From contig JABWAU010000026.1 of NCBI GenBank assembly GCA_013360875.1, forward strand, positions 1 through 36,599: a stretch of DNA of 36,599 bases, read 5' to 3'. Source of the DNA: Anaerolineales bacterium (GTDB lineage Bacteria > Chloroflexota > Anaerolineae > Anaerolineales > Villigracilaceae). The notes under the pieces were generated by a model. That model was not told the origin of the DNA and did no database searches. It saw only the letters and a list, made by a program, of their open reading frames with translations. This document shows, piece after piece, positions 23,609 to 36,503 of this stretch. Position 1 is the stretch's first letter, and each line of letters starts with the position of its first letter. Position numbers and translations under genes: made by a program.

Positions 23609-24295
23609 TTACACGCTTCTTTCGCGGACCTCGAACCTGCGCGCCGTTTCCCGAAGCATCCCCGCCCCAACGAGGAGTCCCGCGCCCAGCAGCAACAGCC
23701 CGATCCCGGTGATCGTCATCGCCGTGTTGAACGCGTCCGCATAATTGACCCCGTCCCATGTATGCGTGGACGCCATCGTGTATTGGATGGTGAGGGTCAT
23801 CAAGCCAAGCAGGATCGCCGCCGCGCCGCCCGCAGGCAGGTTGCTCTTCGTGTTGCCTTTCGTAAAATCAACGCCCTGCCAGATGGGGGGAATGCGGAAG
23901 AGCAGAAAGACGATCAGCGTGAGGACGTTCGTGTACACCACCGCATCCACCGGCATGGACGCGCCGCGCAGCGCACGCGAGGCGAAGATGTGGATGAAAC
24001 CGATCAACGCGCCCGCGATCAAAATCGCCAGCGCGTCGCGGTAGGCATTATCCGCGCCCTTGACGAGCATGACCGTGGCGCGGATGCCGTAGATGCCGAG
24101 CGCGACGCCCGTCAGCACGAACAAAATGTAGAGCCACTGGAACGGGGCAAGCGCCGCCATGCTCCCGAAGTTGGTGGGGAAGAGCGCGGCGCAGGTCGTA
24201 CCGACGCCGCCGAGCAGGGTGAACCCGCCCGTCAGCCCCATCAGCACGATGCCGATGAAACGGAGGAACTTTGCGAAGAAACTGTTTCTGGACAT
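23609..24295 (-). CDS. Integral membrane protein, family not recognised (228 aa)
   Basis: The protein has about seven hydrophobic segments, for example FIGIVLMGLTGGFTLLGGVG, WLYILFVLTGVALGIYGI, TNVLTLIVFLLFRI and a Gly/Leu-rich segment ITGIGLLLLGAGLLVGAG near the end, finishing with a charged tail (RRFEVRERSV). AAAGGAG lies before the ATG at 24295; a longer frame upstream runs through a repeat hairpin and is rejected. It is the last leftward gene of the respiratory module. No cofactor motif stands out apart from one His in a membrane segment (GFIHIFASR). It may be an assembly or anchor protein; this is context only. Confidence 0.7.
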   Translation of the reverse strand: MSRNSFFAKFLRFIGIVLMGLTGGFTLLGGVGTTCAALFPTNFGSMAALAPFQWLYILFVLTGVALGIYGIRATVMLVKGADNAYRDALAILIAGALIGFIHIFASRALRGASMPVDAVVYTNVLTLIVFLLFRIPPIWQGVDFTKGNTKSNLPAGGAAAILLGLMTLTIQYTMASTHTWDGVNYADAFNTAMTITGIGLLLLGAGLLVGAGMLRETARRFEVRERSV

Positions 24296-24312
24296 TGTGT
24301 ACTCCTTTACAA

Positions 24313-24347
24313 AAGTGTAGGACAAGATGGAATCTTGTCCTACACTT
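24313..24347. repeat. Family G hairpin (GTAGGACAAGAT / ATCTTGTCCTAC)
   Basis: AAGTGTAGGACAAGAT (24313-24328) and ATCTTGTCCTACACTT (24332-24347) are perfect 16-base arms with a 3-base loop. It touches the stop codon of the upstream gene and lies just before the next ribosome binding site. Confidence 0.85.
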
Positions 24348-24801
24348 AATCGAATTTCAAACCGTATTGTGTTTTTAATTGCCGCACTCTCAACCCAATT
24401 CCGCCCAGCCGCCCGGACATGATCCCCAAAATGGAACACATGATGATGTCCGCCATGAAGACCAGCGAGGGTAAGTGTCCCAGGATGAGTTTGGCGATGA
24501 CCAAAACCCAGATCAGGACGAGGTAGATTTTATCGAGCGAGAGGGTGACGGCTTTCAGTTCCATATCTGCCCGTATGGGGACGAATCGACTCAGCCAAAA
24601 ACCGACCGGCACGAAGAGCGCGAATGTAAGCGGAACCCATTCCCGGCGGAAGTGTCCATTCGCAATGTCGCGGGTGAAATAGAACCCAAAGAGCGCGGAG
24701 AACTGAACGAATAGAAAGGCGCGCAGCCAGATCTTGAAACGGCTCTTTTTCATTTCGCCGCGCAGGGAGCGGAGGAGGGAAAGGAGGTTTGTTATCTGCA
24801 T
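24346..24801 (-). CDS. Small integral membrane protein, family not recognised (151 aa)
   Basis: After a basic N-terminus (LLRSLRGEMKKSRFK) the protein shows about four membrane segments: FLFVQFSALFGFYF, VPLTFALFVPVGFWL, IYLVLIWVLVIAKLIL and MADIIMCSILGIM. The end is basic (GLRVRQLKTQYGLKFD). An alternative start at the internal ATG of MKKSRFK (24753) is possible. It lies between two other membrane proteins of the module but is separated on the right by a large nested repeat, so it may have its own promoter. Function is unknown. Confidence 0.65.
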   Translation of the reverse strand: MQITNLLSLLRSLRGEMKKSRFKIWLRAFLFVQFSALFGFYFTRDIANGHFRREWVPLTFALFVPVGFWLSRFVPIRADMELKAVTLSLDKIYLVLIWVLVIAKLILGHLPSLVFMADIIMCSILGIMSGRLGGIGLRVRQLKTQYGLKFD

Positions 24802-24809
24802 ATGCCATG

Positions 24810-24971
24810 TGGACGTTAGAGAGAGTTTTGAAATTCAGACCCTAAAGGTTTTTTCTGGCGAACCGGGTTCAAAATTTGCACAGAAAGCCTGCTTGAAATG
24901 CTTTTTTGCTTGCAATAGAAACCTTTAGGGTCTCTGTCTTATATTTTCAAAACACTTTCTTAGAACGTCCA
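24810..24971. repeat. Nested inverted-repeat element: family F inside a family H frame
   Basis: Inner arms AGACCCTAAAGGTTT (24837-24851) and AAACCTTTAGGGTCT (24919-24933) are perfect and enclose 67 bases. Outer arms run 24810-24833 (TGGACGTTAGAGAGAG then TTTTGAAA) and 24944-24971 (TTTCAAAACACTTTC then TTAGAACGTCCA) and pair imperfectly. There is no open reading frame. The size and structure resemble a miniature inverted-repeat element. Confidence 0.8.
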
Positions 24972-25014
24972 TTACGCGTACCGCGTAGGAGATGCTCTCT
25001 GGCGCCGGCTTTGT

Positions 25015-25620
25015 TCATCCGAATTTGAATCCCGCCGCGAAACAGGCGGTTGTCAACAAAAGCAAGCCAGGCAGGACTTTGAGAATGGTCTCTCTCGAAA
25101 GGATCGGCCTGCCCGTTTTCAGAAACGATAACAGCAATCCGCCGACGCCGATCAACGCGCCGCCTATGCCGACGAGCGCGAACAGCGGCGGCGCCTTTCC
25201 CTGAATGGAGAGGATGATGGGGAGGATGAATATCGTCATGCCTGCAATGCCGTGCGTGAGGACAAGGATGATGATGGGAAGTTTGCCCGGGGCGGAGATC
25301 GAGCGGGTCAAGGTTACAGCGAGGAAACCGCCAATGGCGAAGAGCAGGTAAAGGGTCCGGTACGAAGCGAGGTGTTGCCAGGCGAGTCCCGTCGCGAGGC
25401 TGAGGGGAATGATCGTCGAGATGATGATGACGACCGGCGAGTCCAGAATATCGAAGCCGAGGATGAAGATCAGCAGGACCGCGACGAGCAGGACGCCGAA
25501 GCCGACCGTGTAGGCGATGATGGGTAATGTGTCGAAGCCGTCTATGCCCACCGCCACCTGATACGCGGCAATGATGACGGTGAAGAGCAGGAGAACGCGG
25601 TCGAGAGGAGAGGGTTTCAT
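25015..25620 (-). CDS. Paralogous 201-aa membrane protein, copy B
   Basis: The protein has about six membrane segments and aligns over its full 201 residues with the protein at 29321-29926. Shared blocks include GFGVLLVAVLLIFILGFDIL, SPVVIIISTIIPLSL, HGIAGMTIFILP with a conserved His, and GIGGALIGVGGLLLSFLKTGR. The family is not recognised. The copies have the same length and flank heme o synthase, the FGE-like lipoprotein and the heme-copper oxidase-like gene, so they may be membrane subunits or assembly factors of that complex. The conserved membrane His could bind heme. No clear ribosome binding site is visible before the ATG at 25620. Confidence 0.75.
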   Translation of the reverse strand: MKPSPLDRVLLLFTVIIAAYQVAVGIDGFDTLPIIAYTVGFGVLLVAVLLIFILGFDILDSPVVIIISTIIPLSLATGLAWQHLASYRTLYLLFAIGGFLAVTLTRSISAPGKLPIIILVLTHGIAGMTIFILPIILSIQGKAPPLFALVGIGGALIGVGGLLLSFLKTGRPILSRETILKVLPGLLLLTTACFAAGFKFG

Positions 25621-25664
25621 GAGGTTATCGTTTCAGTACTTCAAAATTCATTTTGCGCACGTGT

Positions 25665-25680
25665 GCAAGATAAATCTTGC
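25665..25680. repeat. Family G short palindrome (GCAAGAT-AA-ATCTTGC)
   Basis: A perfect 7-base inverted repeat lies in the gap between heme o synthase and the 201-aa gene. It is flanked by GCGCACGTGTGC and GGTACTAC; the GGTAC flank recurs at 30225-30230. Confidence 0.6.
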
Positions 25681-25684
25681 GGTA

Positions 25685-26575
25685 CTACATCACTTCGATC
25701 ACAACCAAAATCATCGCGGCAAGCATGTAAACGGATGCATATTTGAATAAACCGAAGTTGACGCGCTCGGAGGGGCGGAAGGTCATCACGAGGGCGAGAA
25801 TGAGCAAACCCGCCGAAAGTACGCCGAGCAGGCGCAGAAAACCCCACGCCATGCCAATGCCGTATCCCGCGACGACCATCGCTGCCGCCGCCAGCACGGA
25901 GGAGATCGCAATGGTGGCGCGGGTGACGCCCAGCCCGTAGGTGGAGGGGAAGGTCGGCACGCAGGCGGCTTCGTAGTCCTTGGCGAATTTCATGCTGAAG
26001 GTGAGCGTATGGGTGGGAATCCAGAACAGGACGCCGAGCGCGAGGGTGACGCCGACCCAATCAATGTAACCGAGACCGAGCGCGCGTCCCGCGAGGATGG
26101 GCATGGCGCCCGAAACGCCTCCCCAGACGATGCTCCACGCGGTGCGGCGTTTGAGCCAGATGCTGTACACGACCACGTCAAAGAACAGCCCCGCAAAGAC
26201 GATGAGACCGTAGAGCGCGTCCATCGCCACCGCCCAGCCGACGCCGATGACCGAAAGGATCAAACCCACGCGCAGGACTTCGTTTTCGTCCACCACGCCC
26301 GATGAGGTGGCGCGCTTTTTCGTGCGCCCCATTTTGGCGTCTATGTCGCGGTCCCACCACATGTTGAGAACGGTGCTTCCTGCAATCGCAAGAAAGAGGC
26401 TGACCGCCAAGCCCAGAATCGCGCCGATGTTGAACACGGGACAACGCGCGCTCATGTAGCCCGCCAACCCGGTGGCGAGGAGGAGTCCACTTTGCAGAGG
26501 TTTGGTCAGGCTCCAGTAGGCTCTGATCTTAGATTTCAGGTTTACGATTGACGATTGGGCGGTAACGACGGACAT
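25685..26575 (-). CDS. ctaB: Protoheme IX farnesyltransferase (heme o synthase)
   Basis: The 296-residue UbiA-family prenyltransferase has the first Asp-rich motif N-MWW-D-RDI-D at residues 71-79 followed by AKMGRTKKRAT. The second conserved loop, KDYEAACVPTFPSTYG, is the CtaB/CyoE signature. Nine or so hydrophobic helices cover the rest. It adds a farnesyl group to heme b to give heme o, needed by many heme-copper oxidases. AGGAG lies before the ATG at 26575. Codons 6-18 (AQSSIVNLKSKIR) are encoded by a repeat word. Heme A synthase is not present, so the oxidase may use heme o, or CtaA is elsewhere. Confidence 0.93.
   Translation of the reverse strand: MSVVTAQSSIVNLKSKIRAYWSLTKPLQSGLLLATGLAGYMSARCPVFNIGAILGLAVSLFLAIAGSTVLNMWWDRDIDAKMGRTKKRATSSGVVDENEVLRVGLILSVIGVGWAVAMDALYGLIVFAGLFFDVVVYSIWLKRRTAWSIVWGGVSGAMPILAGRALGLGYIDWVGVTLALGVLFWIPTHTLTFSMKFAKDYEAACVPTFPSTYGLGVTRATIAISSVLAAAAMVVAGYGIGMAWGFLRLLGVLSAGLLILALVMTFRPSERVNFGLFKYASVYMLAAMILVVIEVM
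26527..26560. repeat. Family L words in the first codons of ctaB
   Basis: TCTTAGATTTCAGGTTTACG and ATTGACGATTGGG match the style of 15925-15958. They are translated as the N-terminal cytosolic tail of heme o synthase. Confidence 0.5.
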
Positions 26576-26590
26576 GGAGAACTCCTAAAG

Positions 26591-26657
26591 GTAGACAGGT
26601 ATATACGTACACACGTTTAGGCGGAAAGTATACCTGTGTACTTGTATACCTGTCTAC
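26591..26657. repeat. Family M inverted repeat (GTAGACAGGTATA / TATACCTGTCTAC)
   Basis: Perfect 13-base arms at 26591-26603 and 26645-26657 enclose further TACACACG / TGTGTACTTGTATA words. It fills the gap between the FGE-like gene and ctaB. Confidence 0.8.
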
Positions 26658-26665
26658 TTGTTTAC

Positions 26666-27664
26666 TCATCTTACACATCTGAACCCGACGCCGGGACTGT
26701 AATACATCGGCGGGGCGCTGTTGCGGACCCAGACGCGCAGGTCCATGTCGTAGGTGTCCTTCGAGCCGCCGCGCATGAAGCGGTCGCTGAAGCCTTCCTG
26801 CGGCTGCACGTCGCCGATCCATTGCCAGACGTTGCCAGCCATGTCGTACAGTCCATACGGGGATTTGGAATCGAGCGTGGCGTAGCCGTCGTAGGTTTTG
26901 CCGTTATAGAAGCCGACAGGAGTCGTCCGCGAGCCGAACGTTTTCATATCCTCGAACGGGTCGCGACTGGAGTAGAAGTTGGCGTTCTCGCGTTTGATCT
27001 CGTCGCCCCAGGGGAAGGGACGCGTGGATCCTGAGCCTGTCGAAGGACCACGGGCGGCTTTTTCCCATTCCTTTTCGGAGGGCAGGCGGTAGTCGTAATA
27101 TTCGCAATAGCCCCACGCGCCGAACCAACTGACCATCGTCATGGGATGGTTTTCGTATCCGGGCTGGACCGTGAAACTGCTCCCGTTAAATTTGACTCTC
27201 TGCGACGGGTCGTTCAACAGGATGAAAACCCAATCGCCCGCTTTGATCTCGATCTCATGCTCGATGCCGTGGAAGGGGTCGCCGGGGTAGTAACCGGCGA
27301 TGTATTCGCCACGCTCCGCGACTTTGACGTAACCGTCCGCGAGCGCGGCGTTGAGGAAGTCCGCATATTGTTTCGTGGTCACGTCCGTGATCATGATCTC
27401 GTACGCGCCGGTGGTTTCGATATATTCGTGTTGACCGAGGTAGAACTCTCCCGCAGGAATCTGCGCCCAGGCGTTCGGGTCAATGCCGGTGTCGAAGATG
27501 GGCATCGGAGCGTTCAGGTCAACAGAGGCGCACGAGGCGAGGAGGAGCGCGACAAGCAGAACAGGGAAAATGGGACGCGGAATAACGCGGATGGACGTGG
27601 AGTTTTTAAAATTATTTCCGCGTTTATCCGCGCTCGTCAGCGTCCGATTAAGTATGTGTTTCAT
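26666..27664 (-). CDS. FGE-sulfatase (SUMF1) domain lipoprotein, likely non-catalytic
   Basis: The 332-residue protein has a signal peptide ending in the lipobox LLASCA (Cys about residue 45). It is followed by a formylglycine-generating-enzyme fold: QIPAGEFYLGQ, TTKQYADFLNA, MVSWFGAWGYCEYY, RLPSEKEWEKAARG, PYGLYDMAGNVWQW, FMRGGSKDT and GVGFRCVR. The cysteine pair FGE uses for catalysis is absent near VRNSAPP, so it is probably a binding or structural relative. Its ATG overlaps the oxidase stop by four bases (27661-27664), indicating coupled translation. The n-region of the signal peptide is lengthened by repeat-encoded residues, and PSTGSGS comes from another repeat word. Confidence 0.85.
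   Translation of the reverse strand: MKHILNRTLTSADKRGNNFKNSTSIRVIPRPIFPVLLVALLLASCASVDLNAPMPIFDTGIDPNAWAQIPAGEFYLGQHEYIETTGAYEIMITDVTTKQYADFLNAALADGYVKVAERGEYIAGYYPGDPFHGIEHEIEIKAGDWVFILLNDPSQRVKFNGSSFTVQPGYENHPMTMVSWFGAWGYCEYYDYRLPSEKEWEKAARGPSTGSGSTRPFPWGDEIKRENANFYSSRDPFEDMKTFGSRTTPVGFYNGKTYDGYATLDSKSPYGLYDMAGNVWQWIGDVQPQEGFSDRFMRGGSKDTYDMDLRVWVRNSAPPMYYSPGVGFRCVR
27029..27049. repeat. Family I word (CCTGAGCCTGTCGAAGG) inside the SUMF1 gene
   Basis: GGATCCTGAGCCTGTCGAAG is nearly identical to the intergenic copy at 20298-20313 and reads PSTGSGS in frame. Confidence 0.6.
27583..27650. repeat. Family E words (ATTTCCGCGTTTATCCGCG) in the SUMF1 signal-peptide region
   Basis: GGAATAACGCGGATGGACG and TTATTTCCGCGTTTATCCG with GCGCTCGTCAGCG form an imperfect inverted pair. 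A related word block lies at 29236-29315. Confidence 0.55.
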
Positions 27665-29136
27665 TTCGCCGCCTCCTCCGAGAGTTCGTGAGTCATCTCT
27701 TCCGTCCACCTTCCTTTTGGCTTGAACAAGTCAATCAACCTCCATACCATTACGATTGCGAGAAGCACGAGCAACATGCCGAGTCCGAAGTCAATCATGT
27801 ACATCAACAGGTTGACCAACGGTTGTTGTTCCGCTTCGCTGATGAAGAGACGTTTCATTTCGAAGACCGTCACCGCGCCAAGGGCGAGATCGGAAAGGAA
27901 GATGATGCTCCAGCCGTAGATCTGGCGGACTTTGCCTTTCAGTCCGAGCATGTCGCCGTAGTACATCAGGATGATGGTGGCGATAATGGCGGAAAGCGCG
28001 TGCCAGTGACCGGTGAGTTCGATGCGTTCTTCTCGCGCGGGCCAGACGCGGAAGATCTCGTCCAGCCTGATCGCCATGAAGATGCCGATGCCGCTCGTCG
28101 TAAAGTTCATAAAGAGCATCTGCCAGGTGGGACCGAACTTGAGTGGGTCGCGCACGAGCGCGCCGAGTTTTTGGATGAAGTTCGGTTTTTGGATGTGTGC
28201 CGTGCCATCCTGGATGAGTTTGTTCCAACTCCAGATGAGCAGGAGCAGAGCCGCGAACATCGAAGGCGTCGCGCCGACGTAGATGATGGTGTGGGCGATC
28301 GGTTCGAGCGGCGTGACCACGCCCCATACACCCAGGTTCAATACGATGGTGCCGAGGATCATCAGCGGCATGGCGATCTTGTGCAGGATGCCCTTGAAGT
28401 TCAGCCAGCGCCCGATGATGAGCGTGATCATGATGGCAATAAGCGCCAGCATGATGTGCAGGTGACCGATGATCGAATATTGCATCGTGGTCTTTTCGGG
28501 GAGGCGGATGACGTTCTCCGCCAGAAAGACCTCGAAACCGTTGCCGAAATATGCGCCCGGAATCGCCCCGAACAATGCAGAAATGACGGTCGTTACCGCG
28601 GTAGCAAAGAAGGCGGTGCGCTCCAGGTCGAGTCCGCTTTTGGTGCGGGAGTAATCCTTGTCGGTGATGTAATATTCCTTATTCCAGGGCCAGAGCGCAA
28701 TGCACAACAGCACGCCCGCGAAGAAGATCAGCGACAATCCGGAGATGTACAGTCCGTGGAACGCCCAGTTGTGACCGAAGTAGGCGAAACTCATCCCGAA
28801 GATCATGGTGGTGAGGTAGCCGACCGTGATGATGACGTTGATGGAGGTCTTGAAAAAGGGCTTCATCTTCAACAAGCCCGTGATCATGTAGGTCTCGATG
28901 GCGACGACCGCCATGGCAATCGAGTGGTACAGGATGATGATGCGTCCCTCGCGCTCCGCCTGTACGATGTCCATGCCGAAGAGTTTGATGACCACCTCGC
29001 GGACGCCCATCTCCGCCATCGGACCGGACAACATGCCCCAAATGGCGGTGACGACGGCGATCATGGCGATCGCCACGAGGATCAAGCCCTTCGTGGAATT
29101 GAAGAGATAGTTGAATCGTGTTTTGATGAACTCCAT
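27661..29136 (-). CDS. Divergent heme-copper oxidase / NO reductase-like subunit I
   Basis: The 491-residue protein has 12-13 membrane helices. Candidate heme and metal ligands are His71 (LYHSIAM), His225 and His227 (GHLHIML), His282 (IAHTIIY) and His377 and His379 (GHWHALS); the last pair matches the helix X H-x-H of the family. The classical HPEVY and the HH pair of helix VII are not present, so the Cu-B or non-heme metal site differs from standard oxidases and NorB. No CuA subunit II, NorC or FixO is nearby. AGGAG precedes the ATG at 29136, and a Crp/Fnr-type site lies upstream. With heme o synthase downstream, a role in O2 or NO reduction is likely but unproven. Confidence 0.75.
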   Translation of the reverse strand: MEFIKTRFNYLFNSTKGLILVAIAMIAVVTAIWGMLSGPMAEMGVREVVIKLFGMDIVQAEREGRIIILYHSIAMAVVAIETYMITGLLKMKPFFKTSINVIITVGYLTTMIFGMSFAYFGHNWAFHGLYISGLSLIFFAGVLLCIALWPWNKEYYITDKDYSRTKSGLDLERTAFFATAVTTVISALFGAIPGAYFGNGFEVFLAENVIRLPEKTTMQYSIIGHLHIMLALIAIMITLIIGRWLNFKGILHKIAMPLMILGTIVLNLGVWGVVTPLEPIAHTIIYVGATPSMFAALLLLIWSWNKLIQDGTAHIQKPNFIQKLGALVRDPLKFGPTWQMLFMNFTTSGIGIFMAIRLDEIFRVWPAREERIELTGHWHALSAIIATIILMYYGDMLGLKGKVRQIYGWSIIFLSDLALGAVTVFEMKRLFISEAEQQPLVNLLMYMIDFGLGMLLVLLAIVMVWRLIDLFKPKGRWTEEMTHELSEEAAK

Positions 29137-29175
29137 GAACGATACTCCTAATTGGTGGACGGTCAGCCTAATGAA

Positions 29176-29217
29176 AAAATATCACAAATTGGGCTGAACG
29201 TCTTTGACAAAAGACAA
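29176..29217 (-). promoter_or_regulatory. Crp/Fnr-type site and -10 upstream of the oxidase-like gene
   Basis: On the minus strand TTGTC-TTTT-GTCAA (29217-29204) is centred 29.5 bases before a TATTTT hexamer (29181-29176) that carries an extended TGA upstream. The same spacing occurs at three other promoters of the module. Confidence 0.55.
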
Positions 29218-29235
29218 ATACCTGCGCCGGGGCGG

Positions 29236-29315
29236 TACACGGATTCCGCGAATTTGCGCGGATGTTTTTGGAAATCCACGTTCATGCGTGTCGTCCGCGC
29301 AATCCGTGTACAAAC
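29236..29315. repeat. Family E words upstream of the oxidase-like gene
   Basis: ACACGGATTCCGCGAATTTG with GCGCGGATG and the opposite GCGCAATCCGTGTAC form an imperfect inverted pair around a spacer (GTACACGGATT / AATCCGTGTAC). Confidence 0.6.
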
Positions 29316-29320
29316 AAGGA

Positions 29321-29926
29321 TCATCCTTTCTTCGCGAAGCCCAGCGCGAAGGCGCCCGTCATCAGGAAGAGCAGGGGCGTGAGGATCAGGGTCACGAACT
29401 GCGGGCTGAAGAACAGCAGCTGCCTGCCGACCGAGATGAACGCCAGCGCAATGCCGCCGAGCCCGATCAACAAACCGCCGATGCCCACCCAGTAAAATCC
29501 CTTCGGCGCGCCCTTGGCGAAGAACGGACCGAGGAAGATGACCAGTCCCGCCACGCCGTGGAACAGAGGCACGGCGATCTTCTTCAACGCATCCATCCCG
29601 CCGATGCTGGTGACGGCGATGGCAAGGAAGCCGATCACCGCGAACCACTTGAAGGCTTTCTTCCAGGATGGGTAATATTCCTCGGCGATGCCCATCGAAA
29701 TGCCGAGCGGGATCAAACTTGCGACCGTCAGCACATAGGGCGAAGCCAAAATCCCCAAGCCGAGGAAGATCAACAGCAGCCCCGAAACCAAAAGCACCGC
29801 AAACCCCATCAAATAATAGAGATTGTGCAGCGCTTTGTTCAGGTTGTACCTTTGCCAGAAGAACCAGCACAGGTACACGGCAATCAAGCCGGTGAGCAGA
29901 AGGAACAGGTTGTCGAGCGTGAACAT
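29321..29926 (-). CDS. Paralogous 201-aa membrane protein, copy A
   Basis: The protein has about six membrane segments and is the full-length paralogue of the protein at 25015-25620. Shared blocks are GFAVLLVSGLLLIFLGLGIL, SPYVLTVASLIPLGI, FHGVAGLVIFLGP with the conserved His, and GIGGLLIGLGGIALAFISVGR. AAGGAG lies before the ATG at 29926. A promoter with a Crp/Fnr-like palindrome lies upstream, and the oxidase-like gene follows, so it is likely co-regulated with it. The family is not recognised; a heme-binding or anchor role is only a suggestion. Confidence 0.78.
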   Translation of the reverse strand: MFTLDNLFLLLTGLIAVYLCWFFWQRYNLNKALHNLYYLMGFAVLLVSGLLLIFLGLGILASPYVLTVASLIPLGISMGIAEEYYPSWKKAFKWFAVIGFLAIAVTSIGGMDALKKIAVPLFHGVAGLVIFLGPFFAKGAPKGFYWVGIGGLLIGLGGIALAFISVGRQLLFFSPQFVTLILTPLLFLMTGAFALGFAKKG

Positions 29927-29981
29927 GACATTCTCCTTGTAGGTTTATCGTAGACAACGCCACGCGGTTGCCTCTTTGTGA

Positions 29982-30025
29982 ATTATGACACAAGTCTTTA
30001 TCGGATTTCAGTGACATAAATCACA
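29982..30025 (-). promoter_or_regulatory. Crp/Fnr-type site and -10 upstream of the 201-aa gene copy A
   Basis: AGTGACATAAATCACA (30010-30025) fits both the TGTGA-N6-TCACA and a GTGAC-N4-ATCAC layout. Its centre is 30.5 bases before CATAAT (29987-29982 on the minus strand), putting it about -42 from the start site, the class II activator position. Confidence 0.6.
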
Positions 30026-30118
30026 CTCCGCTTCACGCGTGACGTTCAGCCTGCTCCTGTTTCCCGAGCCGGTACCGCGACATTTTGCGGATTAACAAAT
30101 TAATCGAACAATCCCGTA

Positions 30119-30138
30119 GCACAAGATTTATCTTGTGC
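30119..30138. repeat. Family G palindrome (GCACAAGAT-TT-ATCTTGTGC)
   Basis: A perfect 9-base inverted repeat lies in the 300-base gap between two membrane genes. A half copy (GCAAAATCTTGCGGTAC) lies at 30214-30230. Confidence 0.75.
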
Positions 30139-30233
30139 CCCTACCCATGACCGGCAACCTTCATACTGCGCCACAAAACGCCAGATGTGGATTGCTAGAA
30201 TAATTTGGAAAAGTGCAAAATCTTGCGGTACGC

Positions 30234-31064
30234 TTACGCGGCGGCGTTCCATTCCTCCAACATCTTCCTCGTGGACGGGAGCAGCAGGTAGATCAGCAGC
30301 CCCGTGCTCATCAACGGCGCGGGCAGGAACATCGAGAAGCGATGCACTTCCACCAGCGCGTTATGCAATCCCAGCGGATAGCCTGCGATCATGGACATCG
30401 CCGCCGCGAAGATGCCCATAGGGAGCGCCCACGATTTCTTCCTGAACACAGCGAAGATGAACATCGCCCAAGCCGCCGCGCCCCACCAACTGACCTGCTG
30501 CAAGATCACATACATCCCGTTCCAGAATGTATTGGGGTTCTGGGCAAAGGCTGCCGGCATTTGGAAAGTACTCTGGAATTTGGAGATCGGCGCGACGCCG
30601 TCAATGAAGGTCAGCACGTACGCAAGGCCTGCGATAAAAGTTAGCGTGATGATCTTCCCGTTGACGCCGCCAACGAACAACATCCCAAACCACATGACCG
30701 CCGCCAGAAGGAATACCCACATCGTCGGGACGGGCAATCCGCTGTCAGCCGCGGGGATCATGGGGAAGAAGCCCGCCAGCAGGAGGATGGTCGCGGCGAC
30801 CGCGCCCCAGAACCACGCCCAATCCTGTTTTTTCAGGAAACCCCACAGCACAGCGGCGGAGAGCGCGCCGGCCGCCGTTCCCAACCAACCCAACACCGCG
30901 TAGACGAAGCGGACGGTATTGCTCTCTTCCCATTCACCCGCCGCAAAATGCGTGTGAATGACGGTATTGTACGTGTCTGCGATGAAATACAGGCACAGGA
31001 TTCCCGCCGCGATGCCGAGAACCGCGAGGACGGCTCCAAGTTTGTAATTGTTTTTCATTTTCAT
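30234..31064 (-). CDS. Integral membrane protein, family not recognised (276 aa)
   Basis: About eight membrane helices are visible, for example LGAVLAVLGIAAGILCLYFI, VYAVLGWLGTAAGALSAAVL, FWGAVAATILLLAGFFPMI and SWWGAAAWAMFIFAVF. A soluble-looking loop with TFQMPAAFAQNPNTFWNG separates helices five and six. The start ATG at 31064 has AAAGGAG. The protein is Trp- and aromatic-rich at helix ends but shows no known motif. It lies between the CopD-like gene and the 201-aa gene on the same strand. A membrane subunit or electron-transfer accessory role is inferred only from position. Confidence 0.7.
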   Translation of the reverse strand: MKMKNNYKLGAVLAVLGIAAGILCLYFIADTYNTVIHTHFAAGEWEESNTVRFVYAVLGWLGTAAGALSAAVLWGFLKKQDWAWFWGAVAATILLLAGFFPMIPAADSGLPVPTMWVFLLAAVMWFGMLFVGGVNGKIITLTFIAGLAYVLTFIDGVAPISKFQSTFQMPAAFAQNPNTFWNGMYVILQQVSWWGAAAWAMFIFAVFRKKSWALPMGIFAAAMSMIAGYPLGLHNALVEVHRFSMFLPAPLMSTGLLIYLLLPSTRKMLEEWNAAA

Positions 31065-31142: not shown

Positions 31143-31634
31143 TCATCCGCCGGCGATCGGTCCGGCGAGCGCGGCAACGAACCCGCTGACCAGCAGCACT
31201 GTAACCGCCAGCCCCGCGTTTATCAGCAGGAGGCGGACGTTCAGCCGTTCCTTTTCCGGCGTCATCGCCTGGGCGCGCCCGAGGACGAGGACGCGGTAGA
31301 GGGAAATGCCGATCATGGCGAGGACGAGGATGTGCTTGATGGACAGCATCACCGAATATGCGTTCCCGAACGAGAATAACGCTTCGTACTCCGGGCTGCG
31401 GTTGGTCATCAGCAGCCCTGTCAGGATCAACCCCGCCATGCTGACGTATACCCAGACGCTTTGCCGCTTCTGTAAGATCGTCATCACCTTTTTGACCTGC
31501 GGTCCCGCCCCCAGCGCCTCTTTGACCGAAGGCATAAAGGACAGCGCGGTGACGATCAAACCGCCCATCCAGACGGCGGTGAACAGGTCGTGAAAAAATG
31601 AGACCAGCGCAAAGACGATAATTTTTGCAGTCAT
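31143..31634 (-). CDS. CopD-like four-helix membrane protein
   Basis: The 163-residue protein has four membrane helices, with SFFHDLFTAVWMGGL at the first, VYVSMAGLILTGLLM at the second, MLSIKHILVLAMIGISLY at the third and LLLINAGLAVTVLLVSGF at the last. His15, the WMGG segment and His in SIKHIL follow the pattern of CopD and related copper or heme-binding membrane proteins. AAGGAG precedes the ATG at 31634, and it starts one base after the BON gene's stop, so the two are co-translated. In an oxidase-like locus a copper-uptake or heme-b role is plausible. Confidence 0.65.
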   Translation of the reverse strand: MTAKIIVFALVSFFHDLFTAVWMGGLIVTALSFMPSVKEALGAGPQVKKVMTILQKRQSVWVYVSMAGLILTGLLMTNRSPEYEALFSFGNAYSVMLSIKHILVLAMIGISLYRVLVLGRAQAMTPEKERLNVRLLLINAGLAVTVLLVSGFVAALAGPIAGG

Positions 31635-31635: not shown

Positions 31636-31935
31636 TCACTCCTTTCTTTCAGGATTGGTATCTGGAAGTTCCAGGTTGATGGTGCGGGATGGATTCGGCG
31701 CGCCGGGCGCTTCGATGCGATTTGCCACGCCGCGCACTCCGCGCACGGTTTTTGTCAGTTCCTCCGCCGCGTTGCGCACCTCCAGCGAATCTACCCTGCC
31801 CGCCAGGTGTGCGATGCCGTTCAGCACGCCCACGCGCAGATCCGCAGAGGCGGTGCGCGCGTCAGAGGCGAATAAGGTCAATATCGCCGCGCGCAGGCTT
31901 TCGTCGGAGGAAAGAGGCGGATGTTGAGTCATCAT
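31636..31935 (-). CDS. BON-domain protein, cytosolic
   Basis: The 99-residue protein contains one BON domain from about residue 12 to 75. DESLRAAILTLFASDAR, DLRVGVLNGIAHLAGRV and VRNAAEELTKTVRGVRGVAN match the alpha-beta pattern with the conserved GxVxLxGxV-like core. BON domains usually bind lipid or act in periplasmic proteins, but no signal peptide is present here. It is the first gene of the leftward operon. The predicted transcript leaves only about 6 bases before the ATG at 31935. A strong Crp/Fnr-type palindrome is centred at -41.5. Confidence 0.85.
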   Translation of the reverse strand: MMTQHPPLSSDESLRAAILTLFASDARTASADLRVGVLNGIAHLAGRVDSLEVRNAAEELTKTVRGVRGVANRIEAPGAPNPSRTINLELPDTNPERKE

Positions 31936-31947
31936 AAACCTGCCCGT

Positions 31948-32105: not shown

Positions 32106-32111
32106 TATAAT
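32106..32111 (+). promoter_or_regulatory. -10 element of the Crp/Fnr regulator gene
   Basis: A perfect TATAAT lies 32 bases before the ATG at 32144. No good -35 is seen; CCGCCCGGCGGG (32078-32089) just upstream is a GC-rich palindrome. Confidence 0.5.
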
Positions 32112-32143
32112 GACGCGCAGAGCAACAGCAAAGGTGAAAACCG

Positions 32144-32833
32144 ATGTACAAAGACAAAGCTCTTCATCACGCGGGCATATTGAAGTCCGTATCGTATTTT
32201 TCGGAACTGGACGACGCCGCGCTGAACCTGCTGGCGCAGTCGGCGATACGACGCGCTTACGACGCGGGACAGGTCATTTTGATCGAAGGCGAACCGTGCG
32301 CGGGGTTGTACATCGTCGAAAGCGGCTGGTTGAAGGCGGTCAAGATCGGCGCGGATGGGCGGGAGCAGGTGCTTCAAACGCTTCGGGCCGGCGAAGCCTT
32401 CAACGCCCTCAGCGTCTTCACCGATGCGCCCAATCAGGCGACCGTCTCCGTGTTGGAAGATTCGATTGTATGGCTGGTTCAGCGCGAGTTTCTCTTGGGA
32501 TTGATGGATGCGCGTCCCGCGCTGGCGCGGCAGGTGGTGAAGGATTTGGCGGGACGCGTCATGCACCTCATCCGCCTGGTGGAGGATCTATCGCTGCGTT
32601 CGGTGGAGGCGCGTCTCGCGCGGTTGCTGCTTGAGCAGGCGGAGGGCGGCTCGGTCCAACGCCGACGCTGGGCAACGCAGGCCGAAATGGCTTCACGCCT
32701 CGGCACTGTGCCAGACGTGGTCAACCGCGCGTTGCGGAAACTCGCCGAGGAGGGCATGATCCACGTCGCGCGTCATCAGATTCAAATTTTGGATAAGGAG
32801 GGGTTGAGGACGGTGGCGCAGGTGATCGAATGA
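32144..32833 (+). CDS. Crp/Fnr family transcriptional regulator
   Basis: The 229-residue protein has a cyclic-nucleotide-binding-like sensor domain (AGQVILIEGEPCAGLYIVES with VLQTLRAGEAFNAL, split here), the dimer helix about 120-150 and a C-terminal helix-turn-helix at 178-205 (TQAEMASRLGTVPDVVNRAL). The recognition helix has D-V-V-N-R where E. coli FNR has E-T-I-S-R, which would alter the DNA half-site. Only one Cys is present, so it cannot hold an FNR-type 4Fe-4S cluster; a heme, NO or nucleotide signal is possible, as in DNR-like members. It is divergent from the BON operon and lies in the middle of five matching sites. Confidence 0.9.
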   Translation: MYKDKALHHAGILKSVSYFSELDDAALNLLAQSAIRRAYDAGQVILIEGEPCAGLYIVESGWLKAVKIGADGREQVLQTLRAGEAFNALSVFTDAPNQATVSVLEDSIVWLVQREFLLGLMDARPALARQVVKDLAGRVMHLIRLVEDLSLRSVEARLARLLLEQAEGGSVQRRRWATQAEMASRLGTVPDVVNRALRKLAEEGMIHVARHQIQILDKEGLRTVAQVIE

Positions 32834-32836
32834 TGC

Positions 32837-32870
32837 AGACCCTAAAGGTTTTCGGAAACCTTTAGGGTCT
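32837..32870. repeat. Family F short form: 15-base hairpin after the regulator gene
   Basis: AGACCCTAAAGGTTT and AAACCTTTAGGGTCT are directly joined by TCGG. The arms are identical to those at 24837-24933 and 32955-33050. It starts 4 bases after the stop codon and looks like an internally deleted copy; it could end transcription, although no T-tract follows. Confidence 0.88.
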
Positions 32871-32877
32871 TGCAAAA

Positions 32878-32919
32878 CCGATAAAAGTCGTTGAACGAAT
32901 TTCGCTCAAGGTGTATGTT
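32878..32919 (+). promoter_or_regulatory. Crp/Fnr-type site and -10 upstream of the ferredoxin gene
   Basis: CCGAT-AAAA-GTCGT (32878-32891) has one perfect and one degenerate half. It is centred 29.5 bases before TATGTT (32914-32919). Confidence 0.5.
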
Positions 32920-32954
32920 CGCCATGCCTTGAGCGAGTTTTTATTTTTGGCAAG

Positions 32955-33050
32955 AGACCCTAAAGGTTTTTCTGGAAGGCCCAATAGATCATTTGCTGGA
33001 AACCATCGTTGGAAATTTCTCTTGGTTTGCGATGGAAACCTTTAGGGTCT
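32955..33050. repeat. Family F full-length element in the ferredoxin leader
   Basis: The same 15-base arms enclose 66 bases that resemble the interior of the 24837-24933 copy (TTTTCTGG near the left end, GTTTGCGATGG near the right). The predicted ferredoxin transcript would carry the element in its 5' leader. Confidence 0.85.
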
Positions 33051-33074
33051 TGCCGCGATGTATCGGAGCATTCC

Positions 33075-33317
33075 ATGAACCCATTCACCGACCAACCCAT
33101 TCCTCTCATTGACCCTCGTTCCTGCAACGGGTGTGGATTGTGCATGCGCGCCTGTCCGACCCGAGCGCTGATGTTGCGGGACGGGAAAGCCGTTGTCACG
33201 GACCCGCTGGCGTGCGAATACAGCGGTCTGTGCGAAGCGGTTTGTCCCACAGGCGCGATCACGCGCCCCTTCGAGATTGTGATCGCAGAGGAAGAAACCA
33301 ACGCGACTCATGAGTAA
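33075..33317 (+). CDS. Dicluster ferredoxin with one cysteine replaced by serine
   Basis: The 80-residue protein has a complete first 4Fe-4S motif, CNGCGLCMRACP. The second motif reads CEYSGLCEAVCP, where the expected second Cys is Ser; the codon is AGC, one base from TGC. The second site could hold a 3Fe-4S cluster or a Ser-ligated cluster. The C-terminal IVIAEEETN is typical of small electron-carrier or adaptor ferredoxins. The ATG at 33075 (GGAG upstream) is preferred over a longer frame that reads the repeat. A Crp/Fnr-type promoter lies 150 bases upstream. Confidence 0.88.
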   Translation: MNPFTDQPIPLIDPRSCNGCGLCMRACPTRALMLRDGKAVVTDPLACEYSGLCEAVCPTGAITRPFEIVIAEEETNATHE

Positions 33318-33340
33318 AGATGGCGCAATTGCAAAACCCG

Positions 33341-33396
33341 ACGCTGGAGAGCGTCTATTACGCTTTGCGGGGCGCGTAATGGACGTTCTCTAGCGT
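33341..33396. repeat. Family H long hairpin downstream of the ferredoxin gene
   Basis: GAGAGCGTCTATTACGC (33347-33363) pairs with GCGTAATGGACGTTCTC (33374-33390) at 15 of 17 positions, and the outer ACGCT and AGCGT extend it. GAACGTCCATTACGC also occurs at 24964-24977. Confidence 0.8.
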
Positions 33397-33435
33397 CCGC
33401 ACGCAGTTTATCCATGAGTCGCCAATTCCCCAAAT

Positions 33436-33477
33436 TCGACAAAAGTCGTTGAGAAAGATTGAACCGCAGTCTACAAT
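33436..33477 (+). promoter_or_regulatory. Crp/Fnr-type site and TACAAT -10 upstream of the M50 protease gene
   Basis: TCGAC-AAAA-GTCGT (33436-33449) is a near-perfect palindrome centred 29.5 bases before TACAAT (33472-33477). Predicted +1 is 33484. Confidence 0.65.
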
Positions 33478-33484
33478 GCGGAGG

Positions 33485-33664
33485 ATGACAAATATCTGTA
33501 ACCACGAAAAGCCGCGTAATTTGCGCTCTCCCCTGGCAACGTCTCCAGGGCAGTTGTTGCATCTGGCGGTAGAGACCGCCAAATACGCGCACCGTCAAGT
33601 ATTGCATGAAAGGAAAAACAACCATGAACTGGTCACTCAAATTACTCAAAGTCAAAGGCATTGA
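33485..33664 (+). CDS. Possible leaderless 59-aa ORF overlapping the M50 gene start
   Basis: An ATG lies one base after the predicted start site of the promoter at 33436-33477. The frame encodes MTNICNHEKPRNLRSP and QLLHLAVETAKYAHRQVLH and ends 41 bases inside the M50 gene. Two hairpins (CCCTGG/CCAGGG and TGGCGGT-AGAG-ACCGCCA) lie within it, so the stretch may instead be a structured leader. No family is recognised. Confidence 0.3.
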   Translation: MTNICNHEKPRNLRSPLATSPGQLLHLAVETAKYAHRQVLHERKNNHELVTQITQSQRH

Positions 33665-34754
33665 CATCAAGGTCCACTTGACCTTTGTGCTGATCCTCAT
33701 CTGGGCGGCGTATCGCTGGAGCGTCAGCACGGGCGAAGGGACTCAAGGCGCGATCTTCGGCATCGTCGCGACGCTGCTGCTCTTCCTCAGCGTGACCCTG
33801 CACGAACTCGGTCACAGCCTGCAAGCCATCAAGTTCGGCGTGCGCGTCAAGGACATCACCCTCATGCCGATGGGCGGACTCGCGCAGTTGGAGGAGATCC
33901 CCGAAGAGCCGAACAAGGAACTGCACATCGCGATTGCGGGACCGCTGGTCAACTTTGCGATTGCCGCGCTGTTGATCGGGATCGGCGCGCTTCTGGACGC
34001 CCGCGCCCTGGTTTCGCTGGAGGAACTGCAAGCCTCGCTCGGAAGCGTCAGTTGGAGCGGACTGCTGGCGTATCTGACCTCCGCCAATCTGATCCTCGGT
34101 CTCTTCAATCTTATCCCTGCCTTCCCAATGGACGGCGGACGCGTCCTGCGCGCCTTGCTGGCAAAGAAGATGGATCACGCCAAAGCCACGCGGGTCGCCG
34201 CGCAGGTCGGTCAGGGACTCGCTTTCCTCATGGGGCTGTGGGGCTTTATGAGCGGAAGTTGGACTCTCGTCCTCATCGCCATCTTCGTTTGGATGGGCGC
34301 GGGGCAGGAAAGCCAGGGGGCGCAGGTCAAGCATACGTTGGGCGATGCAACTGTCGGTCAGGCAATGACGCGTTCGCCTCACGTGTTGAGAGTCAATGAT
34401 TCGCTGTCGAAAGCCGTCGAGTTGACGCTGTCCACTTCGCAGGCGGATTTCCCCGTGCTGGAATGGGGGAACAATCGGGTCGCGGGTCTGATCGGCGAGG
34501 TTGACCTGTTGCGCGGACTTCAATCTTTTGGCGCGAACGCCGCGGCGCGCGAAGTCATGCGAACGAAGATCGTCGCTGCCAGCCCGGATGAATCGCTCCA
34601 TGCCGCGCAACAAAAAATGGCGGCAAATCGGACGCGCGCCCTGCTCGTGCTGAACTCCGAAGACGAACTGCTGGGCTTGCTGACGGCGGACGACGTGAAC
34701 GAAGCCTATCGGCTGATGGCGGTCAATCCGCAATTGGCGATGAACGCGCAGTGA
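33624..34754 (+). CDS. M50-family site-2 protease with CBS domain pair
   Basis: The 376-residue protein has about five to six membrane helices in the first 235 residues. The zinc motif HELGH is at 60-64 and the third-ligand loop NLIPAFPMDGGR at 162-173. Both motifs are intact, so it should be an active intramembrane metalloprotease. Residues about 245-370 form two CBS motifs (VGQAMTRSPHVLRVNDSL and AREVMRTKIVAASPDESL), which often bind adenine nucleotides and control activity. AAAGGAAA precedes the ATG at 33624; the ATG at 33606 lacks a site. Rhomboid-like SpoIVFB/Rip1 relatives cut anti-sigma factors; the target here is unknown. The Crp/Fnr-type promoter links it to the module. Confidence 0.92.
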   Translation: MNWSLKLLKVKGIDIKVHLTFVLILIWAAYRWSVSTGEGTQGAIFGIVATLLLFLSVTLHELGHSLQAIKFGVRVKDITLMPMGGLAQLEEIPEEPNKELHIAIAGPLVNFAIAALLIGIGALLDARALVSLEELQASLGSVSWSGLLAYLTSANLILGLFNLIPAFPMDGGRVLRALLAKKMDHAKATRVAAQVGQGLAFLMGLWGFMSGSWTLVLIAIFVWMGAGQESQGAQVKHTLGDATVGQAMTRSPHVLRVNDSLSKAVELTLSTSQADFPVLEWGNNRVAGLIGEVDLLRGLQSFGANAAAREVMRTKIVAASPDESLHAAQQKMAANRTRALLVLNSEDELLGLLTADDVNEAYRLMAVNPQLAMNAQ

Positions 34755-34771
34755 GGTTGTTCCGTTTCATA

Positions 34772-34805
34772 CCGTTTAGCCGACAGTTCACCTGTCGGCT
34801 AACGG
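34772..34805. repeat. Long hairpin (TTTAGCCGACAG / CTGTCGGCTAACGG)
   Basis: About 14 base pairs with a short loop lie between the M50 and DUF1858 genes. No T-tract follows, so it is more likely a word-type palindrome (family O) or an attenuator than a simple terminator. Confidence 0.7.
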
Positions 34806-34838
34806 AGGAACTGAGAAAAGCGAATTGAGAGAATTCGA

Positions 34839-35075
34839 ATGAAGATCACAAAAGACACCCGCGTTTCGGAAATCTTGTTGAAGTACGGCGACATCGCCGA
34901 CGTGATGGAAATCTTCGGCGTCAGGCGTGTTGGGAAATATTCCCTGCGGATATTCCTCGCCAAAGCGTTGACCGTGGAATGGGCGGCGCGCGTGCACAAG
35001 GTGCCGCTGGATGAGTTTTTGGGTATCTTACGACGGGCAATCCAGCGCGCTTCCGAACAATCCGAGTCTGAATAA
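34839..35075 (+). CDS. DUF1858-like protein lacking the usual cysteines
   Basis: The 78-residue protein follows the DUF1858 pattern: ITKDTRVSEILLKYGDIADVME, then IFGV and a C-terminal EWAARVHKVPLDEFLGIL. Most members carry a C-x2-C or C-x-C redox motif in the middle; here that region reads GVRRVGKYSLRIFLAKAL with no Cys at all. The domain often accompanies hybrid-cluster proteins and NO or sulfur metabolism. The Cys-free form may be a regulatory or protein-binding version. The ATG at 34839 has no strong ribosome binding site. Confidence 0.75.
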   Translation: MKITKDTRVSEILLKYGDIADVMEIFGVRRVGKYSLRIFLAKALTVEWAARVHKVPLDEFLGILRRAIQRASEQSESE

Positions 35076-35096
35076 AAATAATCAACGGGAGAAAAA

Positions 35097-35273
35097 ATGT
35101 CGGAAACAAAACGAAACTTATCGGCGTGGACAATGAGCGTGGTGATCCTGTCGCTGTTGCTGTTCTTCTTTACCGTCCCGCACACGCTGGAGGATTTTGC
35201 TCTGGGCGAACCAGCCAGGAACGGCGTCCCGGCTCCGGCGCTTTGCTTTTCCTGGCTTCCCTACAAGCCTTGA
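35097..35273 (+). pseudogene. Small single-span membrane protein, probably truncated by a frameshift
   Basis: The frame from ATG 35097 (GGGAG upstream) gives 58 residues: a short cytosolic start, WTMSVVILSLLLFFFTVPHTL as a membrane span (over the split) and EDFALGEPARNGVPAPAL, then an unlikely end CFSWLPYKP. Shifting by one base near 35250 instead reads LLFLASLQALRISSADMQAQK to a stop at 35308, a better continuation with a second hydrophobic helix. A frameshift in the CTTTGCTTTT region is therefore likely, either real or a sequencing error. The family is not named. Confidence 0.5.
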
Positions 35274-35415
35274 GAATAAGCAGCGCCGACATGCAGGCGC
35301 AGAAATAAGATGAGCGGGCTGCGCGAGTATTCAGATACCCTCAGGCGGCGGGCGTCGTTTTTTCTGCCGCGTTTGCGGAGGAGGAAATGATGCGCCGAAA
35401 TTCCAAGGAGAAACC

Positions 35416-35886
35416 ATGATCAAAAAATTGTTTTTAGGATTCGCGACGGTCTTGCTCGCCTCGTGCGGGATGATGTCCGCCCCAGGCGTGGAAGAACCGA
35501 CGCCGATCCCAACCTTCACCCCCGCCGCATCCGCCGCGCAGGAATCCGTTGTAAATCCGTCGCCCGCCCTGGGCGGCAAACAGAGCGGCGACCTGCTGGT
35601 GTGGATCTTCAGCGATCCCAACCCTCCCACCCGAGGCGATAACACGCTCGAAGCGTTGATCTTCGACGCGGACGGACAGCCTGTTTCCGACGCGGCGATC
35701 TCCTTCGACATTGACATGACGAACATGAGCCACGGCAAAAATGTGACCGCCGCCGAATCGCTCGGTGACGGGTGGTACAGCGGCGAGGTGTTCTTCCTCA
35801 TGCCCGGTCCTTGGCGCGTCATCGTCGGCGTCGAGCGCGCAGGGGAGACGACCACCGTGCGATTCGATTTCATGGTCAACTGGTAA
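35416..35886 (+). CDS. YtkA/FixH-like domain lipoprotein
   Basis: The 156-residue protein begins with a lipoprotein signal peptide, LFLGFATVLLASCG, with lipid Cys at about residue 17. A Pro/Thr/Ala-rich linker follows (EEPTPIPTFTPAAS), then an Ig-like YtkA domain: LEALIFDADGQPVSDAAISFDI, DMTNMSHGKNV with Met and His residues, GDGWYSGEVFFLMPGPWRVIV and a C-terminal VRFDFMV. YtkA-type domains occur with copper and oxidase assembly proteins. The N-M-S-H-G segment could bind copper outside the membrane. AAGGAG precedes the ATG at 35416. The YHS gene follows after 23 bases. Confidence 0.83.
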   Translation: MIKKLFLGFATVLLASCGMMSAPGVEEPTPIPTFTPAASAAQESVVNPSPALGGKQSGDLLVWIFSDPNPPTRGDNTLEALIFDADGQPVSDAAISFDIDMTNMSHGKNVTAAESLGDGWYSGEVFFLMPGPWRVIVGVERAGETTTVRFDFMVNW

Positions 35887-35909
35887 TCGTTCGAACCCGG
35901 AGAAATGAT

Positions 35910-36503
35910 ATGTTGAACTTGACAACTGCAATCATCGCCAGTCTTGTCGTCATGCTCGTCAGCGCGGGCGTCGGCGTTTATCTCTCGCGTTACAGGTCGT
36001 CGGTCACGGAAATGCTCGGCATGATGATCGGCATGACGCAGGGCATGATGACGGGCATCGCCGTCGGCTATTTCATCGGCGCGGCGACGGACATGTTCAT
36101 CAGCAACCTGGTCGGCGTGACCGTCGGACTCGCGTTCGGCATCGTCTTCGGGCGCGTCGGCGGGCTGATGGGCATGATGGACGGCGGCATGGGCGGCGCG
36201 ATGGGCGGCATGATGGGCGCCATGCTCGGCGTGATGCTGCAATACCTCTACAACGGCTGGGCGATTCTCATCACCAACGTTTTGATCGCCGCCATCTACC
36301 TCGTTTCGATGTTTGCTCTCGTGCGCCTCGTGCAGCAGGGCGCGGCGGCGCAAATGGAAACCGACCCGGTCTGCGACATGAAGGTTGACCCCAAAACCTC
36401 CCTGCAGCACGTTCACCAGGGACGCGCCTATTACTTCTGCGCGCCTGCCTGCCAGCGAGCGTTCGCCAAATCTCCCGAAACATATTTGAAAAAACAGTTA
36501 TAA
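35910..36503 (+). CDS. Met/Gly-rich membrane protein with C-terminal YHS domain
   Basis: The 197-residue protein has about four membrane helices. Residues 33-110 are unusually rich in Met and Gly (TEMLGMMIGMTQGMMTG, LMGMMDGGMGGAMGGMMGAM), a composition that suits soft-metal coordination such as Cu(I). Residues 151-193 are a YHS domain with Cys155, Cys177 and Cys181 (DPVCDMKVD, YYFCAPACQRAF), often found on copper ATPases. CGGAG precedes the ATG at 35910. With the YtkA-like lipoprotein upstream it probably handles copper for a cuproenzyme. It ends with no terminator but with hairpins at 36538-36580. Confidence 0.82.
   Translation: MLNLTTAIIASLVVMLVSAGVGVYLSRYRSSVTEMLGMMIGMTQGMMTGIAVGYFIGAATDMFISNLVGVTVGLAFGIVFGRVGGLMGMMDGGMGGAMGGMMGAMLGVMLQYLYNGWAILITNVLIAAIYLVSMFALVRLVQQGAAAQMETDPVCDMKVDPKTSLQHVHQGRAYYFCAPACQRAFAKSPETYLKKQL

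Follow-up and report, generated by a model that had tools for sequence, protein, structure and literature searches.

A predicted heme-copper oxidase-fold protein of a new family, encoded in a conserved Anaerolineae operon and associated with nirS

Gene organization of the locus

The window analyzed here is a whole stretch of 36,599 nucleotides from an Anaerolineales bacterium of the phylum Chloroflexota (GenBank assembly GCA_013360875.1, contig JABWAU010000026.1, positions 1 to 36,599). In an original prediction, made from the sequence alone, positions 23609-36503 were described as a candidate respiratory module built around a lone, divergent subunit I of the heme-copper oxidase (HCO) type. 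The present analysis is centered on that subunit, a protein of 491 amino acids (aa), and on the genes encoded with it. The oxidase-like frame is a real gene, present in 41 of 101 related genomes, and its product represents, as judged from its predicted structure, a new family with the HCO fold. The gene and its closest companions are the following:

30234-31064, minus strand: m276, a membrane protein of 276 aa, frequent upstream neighbor
29321-29926, minus strand: m201A, a seven-helix protein of 201 aa with an invariant H123, paralogue of m201B
27661-29136, minus strand: HCO-fold subunit, 491 aa, with seven invariant histidines and no His-His pair in transmembrane helix 7 (TM7)
26666-27664, minus strand: lipoprotein of 332 aa resembling formylglycine-generating enzyme (FGE), its start overlapping the HCO stop by 4 bases
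25685-26575, minus strand: heme O synthase CtaB, 296 aa
25015-25620, minus strand: m201B, a seven-helix membrane protein of 201 aa with an invariant H123
24346-24801, minus strand: m151, a membrane protein of 151 aa, occasional member
23609-24304, minus strand: m231, a membrane protein of 231 aa with C38, R15 and H181 invariant and H105 conserved at 95%; the start codon is uncertain and the frame is open to 24439

The family scans agree with the original prediction on the nature of these genes. CtaB matches PF01040 (E = 7.5e-39) and passes the cut-off of TIGR01473 (212.3 bits against 210.3), as expected of the heme O synthase that had been named. The FGE-like protein matches PF03781 (E = 2.3e-35), and among solved structures SUMF2 is its best relative (E = 3.1e-15, by sequence). 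The only conserved cysteines are C45, which is invariant and lies in the lipobox, C187 and C330, and the C-terminal catalytic Cys pair of formylglycine-generating enzyme is absent; the protein thus shares the FGE fold by sequence but differs from SUMF2 and FGE as a lipoprotein without the catalytic pair, encoded in the operon of a putative membrane complex, which bears out its description as non-catalytic. The two 201-aa proteins are indeed paralogues (39% identity). The AlphaFold2 (AF2) model of the 201-aa protein is confident, with a predicted local distance difference test (pLDDT) score of 94.0; its structural matches are generic seven-helix bundles (Z ≤ 13.6), possibly a common arrangement, and no function is therefore drawn from the model. 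The proteins of 231, 151 and 276 aa, which the original prediction had left without a family, have no family match. Among the 17 window proteins scanned, no match is found to the subunit II, NorC or cytochrome c families, and neither a fused quinol domain nor a cupredoxin subunit II, the partners of nitric oxide reductases (NORs), is present, in line with the lone subunit that had been proposed.

Predicted fold and conserved histidines of the 491-aa protein

The 491-aa protein has no match to COX1 or to any other Pfam or NCBIfam family, and searches of PDB sequences (phmmer and profile) return no match for it. None of 53 family members matches PF00115 (COX1) at E ≤ 1, and a PF00115 search of the window's own genome finds only two other genes. 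The AF2 model, built with 53 sequences (pLDDT 81.3; predicted template-modeling score 0.87; weak at residues 192-207), shows the twelve-helix fold of the HCO superfamily. In VIA-align the best match is the cbb3 oxidase subunit CcoN (8smr_E; Z = 22.4, root-mean-square deviation 4.1 over 399 residues, 8% identity), the ba3 oxidase and the NOR 4xyd follow at Z of about 20.7 and 19.5, and all 50 matches listed are HCO subunit I chains, NOR included. The top Foldseek match is the ba3 oxidase 3s8f (E = 9.5e-3, probability 1.00). Two results speak against the assignment: no Foldseek match for the model reaches E ≤ 0.001, and alignment by hhalign to HCO sets (A, B, cbb3, eNOR and nNOR, labeled by motif) gives probabilities below 5%, which are not significant. 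Since these profiles cannot be aligned significantly, and the local HCO alignments were rejected because they pair non-equivalent helices, ligands were placed by helix order in the AF2 model and not by residue superposition.

Invariance was assessed in an alignment of 72 homologues with identities down to about 32%; L183, a short match, was left out, as was L099, which has an in-frame stop, from alignment A2. Seven histidines are invariant in 72/72 sequences, namely H71 (TM2), H127 (start of TM4), H225 and H227 (TM6), H282 (start of TM8), and H377 and H379 (TM10). The predicted ligands of the low-spin heme, H71 and the second His of the TM10 HxH motif (H379), and that of the high-spin heme, the first His of the same motif (H377), are thus all retained. 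An HxH motif occurs in both TM6 and TM10, and TM6-7 and TM10-11 form an internal repeat (hhalign 94%, E = 1.2e-7, 46 columns) with GHxH in each unit. The His pair that binds CuB or FeB in TM7 is absent: residues 250-273 hold no conserved His other than H252, which lies at the helix start and is 82% conserved. Histidines are present in TM6 (H225, H227). The position four residues past H225 is an invariant Met229, and that past H227 is Ala231 in the window protein; neither the Glu of cNOR and qNOR nor the Gln of eNOR occupies this position in TM6, and the TM6 HPxxY motif with the active-site Tyr of O2 reductases is not present either. With no TM7 pair and no TM6 Glu or Gln, there is no recognizable FeB site.

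The protein resembles CcoN, of the C-family oxidases, in the best structural match, the His in TM2, the HxH in TM10, a His in TM6 and a similar length, whereas it differs in the low identity, the missing Pfam match and TM7 pair, the lack of CcoO and CcoP, and the heme O synthase in its operon. The likeness to the B-family ba3 oxidase lies in the Foldseek match and a Z of about 20, but the TM6 HPxxY, the CuB pair and a CuA subunit II are lacking. With cNOR, qNOR and eNOR the family shares the HCO fold and a genomic link to nitrite reductase, eNOR being linked with NirK in Ardenticatena according to a part of PMC4653789; it differs from them in its dedicated heme O synthase and in lacking a NorC or cupredoxin subunit, the Glu or Gln of TM6 and the TM7 His pair. 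The protein is therefore an HCO-fold relative that is neither a COX1-family member nor a described NOR or O2 reductase, and the original view of a divergent subunit I stands, the protein falling in no family described by sequence. In the literature, covered by titles and abstract openings with subscription papers mostly outside this scope, no description of such a family was found.

The loss of the CuB/FeB pair also suits a different role, that of an electron-transfer cytochrome on the HCO fold, which would act as a quinol dehydrogenase feeding NirS or other extracytoplasmic acceptors and carry out no gas chemistry. The second HxH and the extra histidines could make bis-His hemes for this purpose, but no example of such a cytochrome is known on the HCO fold.

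Conservation of the operon

The family occurs in 13 of 301 genomes of a phylum sample and in 66 of 396 of a class sample, and a scan of a genome collection finds relatives encoded at 291 loci. Neighborhoods were analyzed in the best 80 of the 291, which lean for that reason to close relatives, with flanks of up to 10 kb and many loci shorter than this. Nearly all kept loci are labeled Chloroflexi/Anaerolineae; L110 carries the label Neomarinimicrobiota, perhaps through a binning error, and L097 belongs to the isolate Thermanaerothrix daxensis.

Among loci with enough sequence for each count, the HCO gene is followed downstream by FGE in 74/74, CtaB in 67/70, a 201-aa protein in 54/62, m231 in 46/60 and m151 in 9/55, and is preceded by a 201-aa protein in 43/69, m276 in 39/62 and the Crp gene in 36/52. 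From these counts the conserved module is m201A-HCO-FGE-CtaB-m201B-m231, often preceded by m276 and a Crp gene. The genes are therefore kept together as the original prediction supposed, but in a unit of about 23609-31064 that is narrower than 23609-36503. Three genes beyond it complete the immediate surroundings:

31143-31634, minus strand: CopD-like protein (family match E = 1.4e-7)
31636-31935, minus strand: BON-domain protein (family match E = 4.6e-13)
32144-32833, plus strand: Crp/Fnr-family regulator, divergently oriented, candidate regulator

The minus-strand block from 31935 to 23609 reads BON, CopD, m276, m201A, HCO, FGE, CtaB, m201B, m151 and m231, with successive gaps of 1, 78, 307, 184, -4, 90, 64, 213 and 41 bases. 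The Crp, ferredoxin, M50/CBS, YtkA and YHS proteins of the window also score in the family scans. All the accessory genes that had been counted into the module are thus present, but their standing differs: the Crp/Fnr regulator is a frequent neighbor, CopD (11/80 loci) and BON (16/80) are occasional ones outside the core, and ferredoxin (6/80), M50 (4/80), YtkA and YHS (0/80 each) are not parts of the module. Membrane proteins of 285 and 313 aa (L155:7045-7902 and 9727-10668) recur near the operon, in 11/80 loci each.

Elsewhere in the window, a 16-base short tandem repeat lies at 26628-26665, in the gap between FGE and CtaB, and a 54-base tandem repeat of 4.9 copies lies at 19658-19923, inside overlapping low-complexity reading frames. 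A plasmid search gives no match, and Rfam and tRNA scans of the window find nothing.

Promoter palindromes

Two candidate Crp/Fnr-type palindromes, one of each box kind and each with one mismatch, are found ahead of genes of the module:

29204-29217, minus strand: TTGTCTTTTGTCAA, upstream of the HCO gene
30011-30024, minus strand: GTGATTTATGTCAC, upstream of m201A

The FNR-type box TTGATNNNNATCAA was replaced as promoter motif by TTGACNNNNGTCAA. In a set made up of the window and 79 loci, 23 of the 80 sequences carry the latter box ahead of the HCO gene with 9 or 10 of 10 positions matched, where chance would give 0.7; it mostly lies at a distance of 70-100 bases from the gene. These counts are not independent, the loci being related. 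The promoters of m201A often have GTGACNNNNGTCAC, and the regions upstream of FGE, CtaB, m201B, m231 and m276 contain boxes near chance. The claim that shared promoters tie the parts together accordingly finds support across loci at the HCO gene, but not in the window as a whole, where 5 boxes compare with 4.09 expected. Of 19 regions preceding nirS, none has TTGACNNNNGTCAA at 9/10 or better; three have GTGACNNNNGTCAC at 9 or better, against 0.17 expected, which is suggestive only.

Heme O supply

CtaB genes were searched in ten of the eleven family genomes without a usable COX1 gene (G100 was left out), of which nine have no PF00115 match and one (G054) has one at E = 4e-4; the window's genome, G025 and G616 were added for comparison. 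In each of the ten, one CtaB match alone reaches E ≤ 1e-25, and its position is next to the family gene; in G032 there is a stop in the CtaB frame and the family gene is partial. A second CtaB is encoded elsewhere in the window's genome and in G025; that of the window's genome lies on the contig of the A-type oxidase. Additionally, the CtaB gene overlaps the family gene by 4 bases in three distant homologues (L180-L182). The position of the sole strong CtaB match beside the family gene in genomes lacking a usable COX1 gene is the strongest sign that the HCO-fold protein contains heme O or a heme derived from it.

A dedicated heme O synthase, whose product is a cofactor usual in O2 reductases, together with the HCO fold is what would be expected of a micro-oxic O2 reductase, that is, a new kind of quinol-fed heme-O terminal oxidase, and the family is indeed present in genomes without a usable COX1 gene (11/27). 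However, COX1 presence or absence is unrelated to the family (11/27 against 30/74, p = 1.0), TM6 has no Tyr (Met229, Ala231), the TM7 His pair and subunit II are missing, and the family associates with nirS, as described below, so that a terminal oxidase is regarded as unlikely.

Association with nirS and other nitric oxide-related genes

Among the 101 relatives, in which NirS was counted from strong hits and a fragment in G042 with many weak repeat hits left out, the family is present in 17 of 21 nirS-bearing genomes and in 24 of 80 others (p = 3.5e-5). The values are 16/19 against 23/79 without G042 and three incomplete genomes, and 14/15 against 19/46 inside the genome family f1 (p = 6e-4); a within-genus permutation, with genera mapped by the authors, gives p = 0.003. 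In the class sample, where G421, with a fragment at E = 5.7e-19, and G667, with a hit at E = 8e-11, were scored as lacking nirS, the family is found in 14/35 nirS-bearing genomes and 52/361 others (p = 4.6e-4), or in 10/30 and 46/344 after removal of the recognized overlap (p = 0.007). All three nirS-bearing genomes without a usable COX1 gene (G039, G054 and G080) have the family, and blastp detects no COX1-type gene near nirS in 18 nirS regions.

Physical linkage is observed as well. In G616 (L209) the genes Crp-m201A-HCO-FGE-CtaB-m231 lie on one strand and are followed after 278 bases by nirS, and in G449 (L208) nirS lies 126 bases past m231; in L208 the HCO gene was placed by the class-sample family search, and CtaB is not seen. 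In G025 (L155) the distance to nirS is about 10 kb; three Crp genes occupy the interval, and an NnrS-like gene is found on the far side of nirS. An operon that ends in nirS in two genomes would also be compatible with an electron-transfer cytochrome serving NirS, as would the extra N-terminal domains of the Chloroflexi nirS product, described as cytochrome c in a portion of PMC8756737. However, 24 of the 41 family genomes have no nirS, and plain electron transfer would not need heme O; such a role is accordingly held to be improbable.

Other neighbors also speak for a link to nitric oxide. One distant homologue (L122) adjoins a flavodiiron protein and a DUF438/hemerythrin/PAS protein, and two others (L175, L177) adjoin frames that are DUF438- or hemerythrin-like as judged by eye. 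In addition, a NnrS-like gene lies near the operon in 7/80 loci. These neighbors, and the likeness of a multi-helix membrane protein in nitric oxide (NO)-linked surroundings, would fit a protein that binds NO or confers tolerance to it without turnover, in the manner of NnrS. Such an activity is nevertheless very unlikely: the NnrS profile PF05940 is not among the families matched by the 53 members scanned at E ≤ 1, profile comparison with the neighboring NnrS-like proteins is at chance, and an enzyme is the better fit for an operon that is large, conserved and equipped with a heme O synthase of its own.

Several side observations concern these neighborhoods. The NnrS-like protein has 392 aa (L155:15574-16752) and is sometimes accompanied by a 103-aa cupin frame; the copy in L103 matches NnrS at E = 1.7e-4, below the cut-off, and COX1 weakly. 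The distant homologue of L123 adjoins a COX1-family gene (L123:10316-11944), next to which there is a weak match to cupredoxin, and L178, with a COX1-family gene at 6073-7689, looks alike; in the L123 gene the TM6 His is replaced (GLDMVAD), although His-His remains in TM7. A further COX1-family gene, L161:4770-6350, which adjoins an eNOR-like gene, apparently lacks this TM7 pair. Of the 101 genomes, 5 have NosZ above the cut-off, and the family is present in one of these (G070). An association with eNOR was rejected (8/14 against 33/87, p = 0.24), the eNOR set having been defined from score bands with few members inspected.

Proposed function

The genomic company of the family suggests that this divergent oxidase relative handles NO, and it possibly supplies a missing denitrification step. 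The genome paper of Thermanaerothrix daxensis names NirS and no NO reductase (PMC4653793), and for Levilinea saccharolytica the portion available of PMC4653796 describes NirS with no NO reductase named there. The operon product is likely respiratory. The function put forward, with a probability slightly short of even, is that of an HCO-fold, heme-O membrane enzyme with a rebuilt site that is fed by quinol and reduces NO, its chemistry being read from the genomic association and the linkage with nirS.

Several observations weigh against NO reduction. Classical NORs use heme b, and heme O or A rather points to O2 reductases; no FeB site is recognizable in the subunit. These two points leave room for O2 reduction, electron transfer or NO binding. 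Four nirS-bearing genomes lack the family (G055, which is 60% complete, G065, G072 and G095), both cases of operon-linked nirS (G616 and G449) come from a single genus, and nirS is found in the flanks of 0/80 loci. Neither nirS nor a NirK above the cut-off is present in thirteen of the 41 family genomes, one of which is the genome of the window. In the window's genome (G000) nirS has no match in the strong range, and an eNOR-like HCO gene (C201, L002; TM6 HPAQQ) is present. An association with NirK was rejected, the family being present in 16/34 NirK genomes and 25/67 others (p = 0.39).

In the function put forward, the operon would make a membrane complex around the HCO-fold catalytic subunit carrying heme O, with a low-spin heme at H71/H379 and the catalytic heme at H377. 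H227 and perhaps H282 would lie at the distal site, and H225 and H127 may form an extra site. The m201A/m201B pair and m231 would be membrane partner subunits, and the FGE-like lipoprotein may be an outer cap replacing subunit II. Electrons would come from quinol because the genes code for neither a cytochrome c nor a CuA partner, and NO, produced by NirS where this is present or arriving from outside, would be reduced to N2O, with the Crp/Fnr-type regulator presumably controlling the promoters. A bolder version, which is rather doubtful, holds that the active site has been rebuilt after loss of the TM7 pair, so that NO is reduced with heme O at a novel arrangement of metals, possibly with three sites, to which the second HxH and the TM4 and TM8 histidines give rise. 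The protein would then be a respiratory enzyme that forms N-N bonds without a canonical FeB site, and would be the NO reductase that is missing in the nirS-bearing Anaerolineae.

The presence of the gene in the isolate T. daxensis makes the question directly testable. For bioenergetics, an HCO fold with a dedicated supply of heme O and without the TM7 His pair would put to the test which elements of the binuclear site NO or O2 chemistry requires. The Chloroflexota concerned are abundant bacteria of wastewater, groundwater and sediment, and if the operon does supply an NO reductase, part of the N2O from these bacteria would be invisible to gene surveys based on COX1-type NORs.

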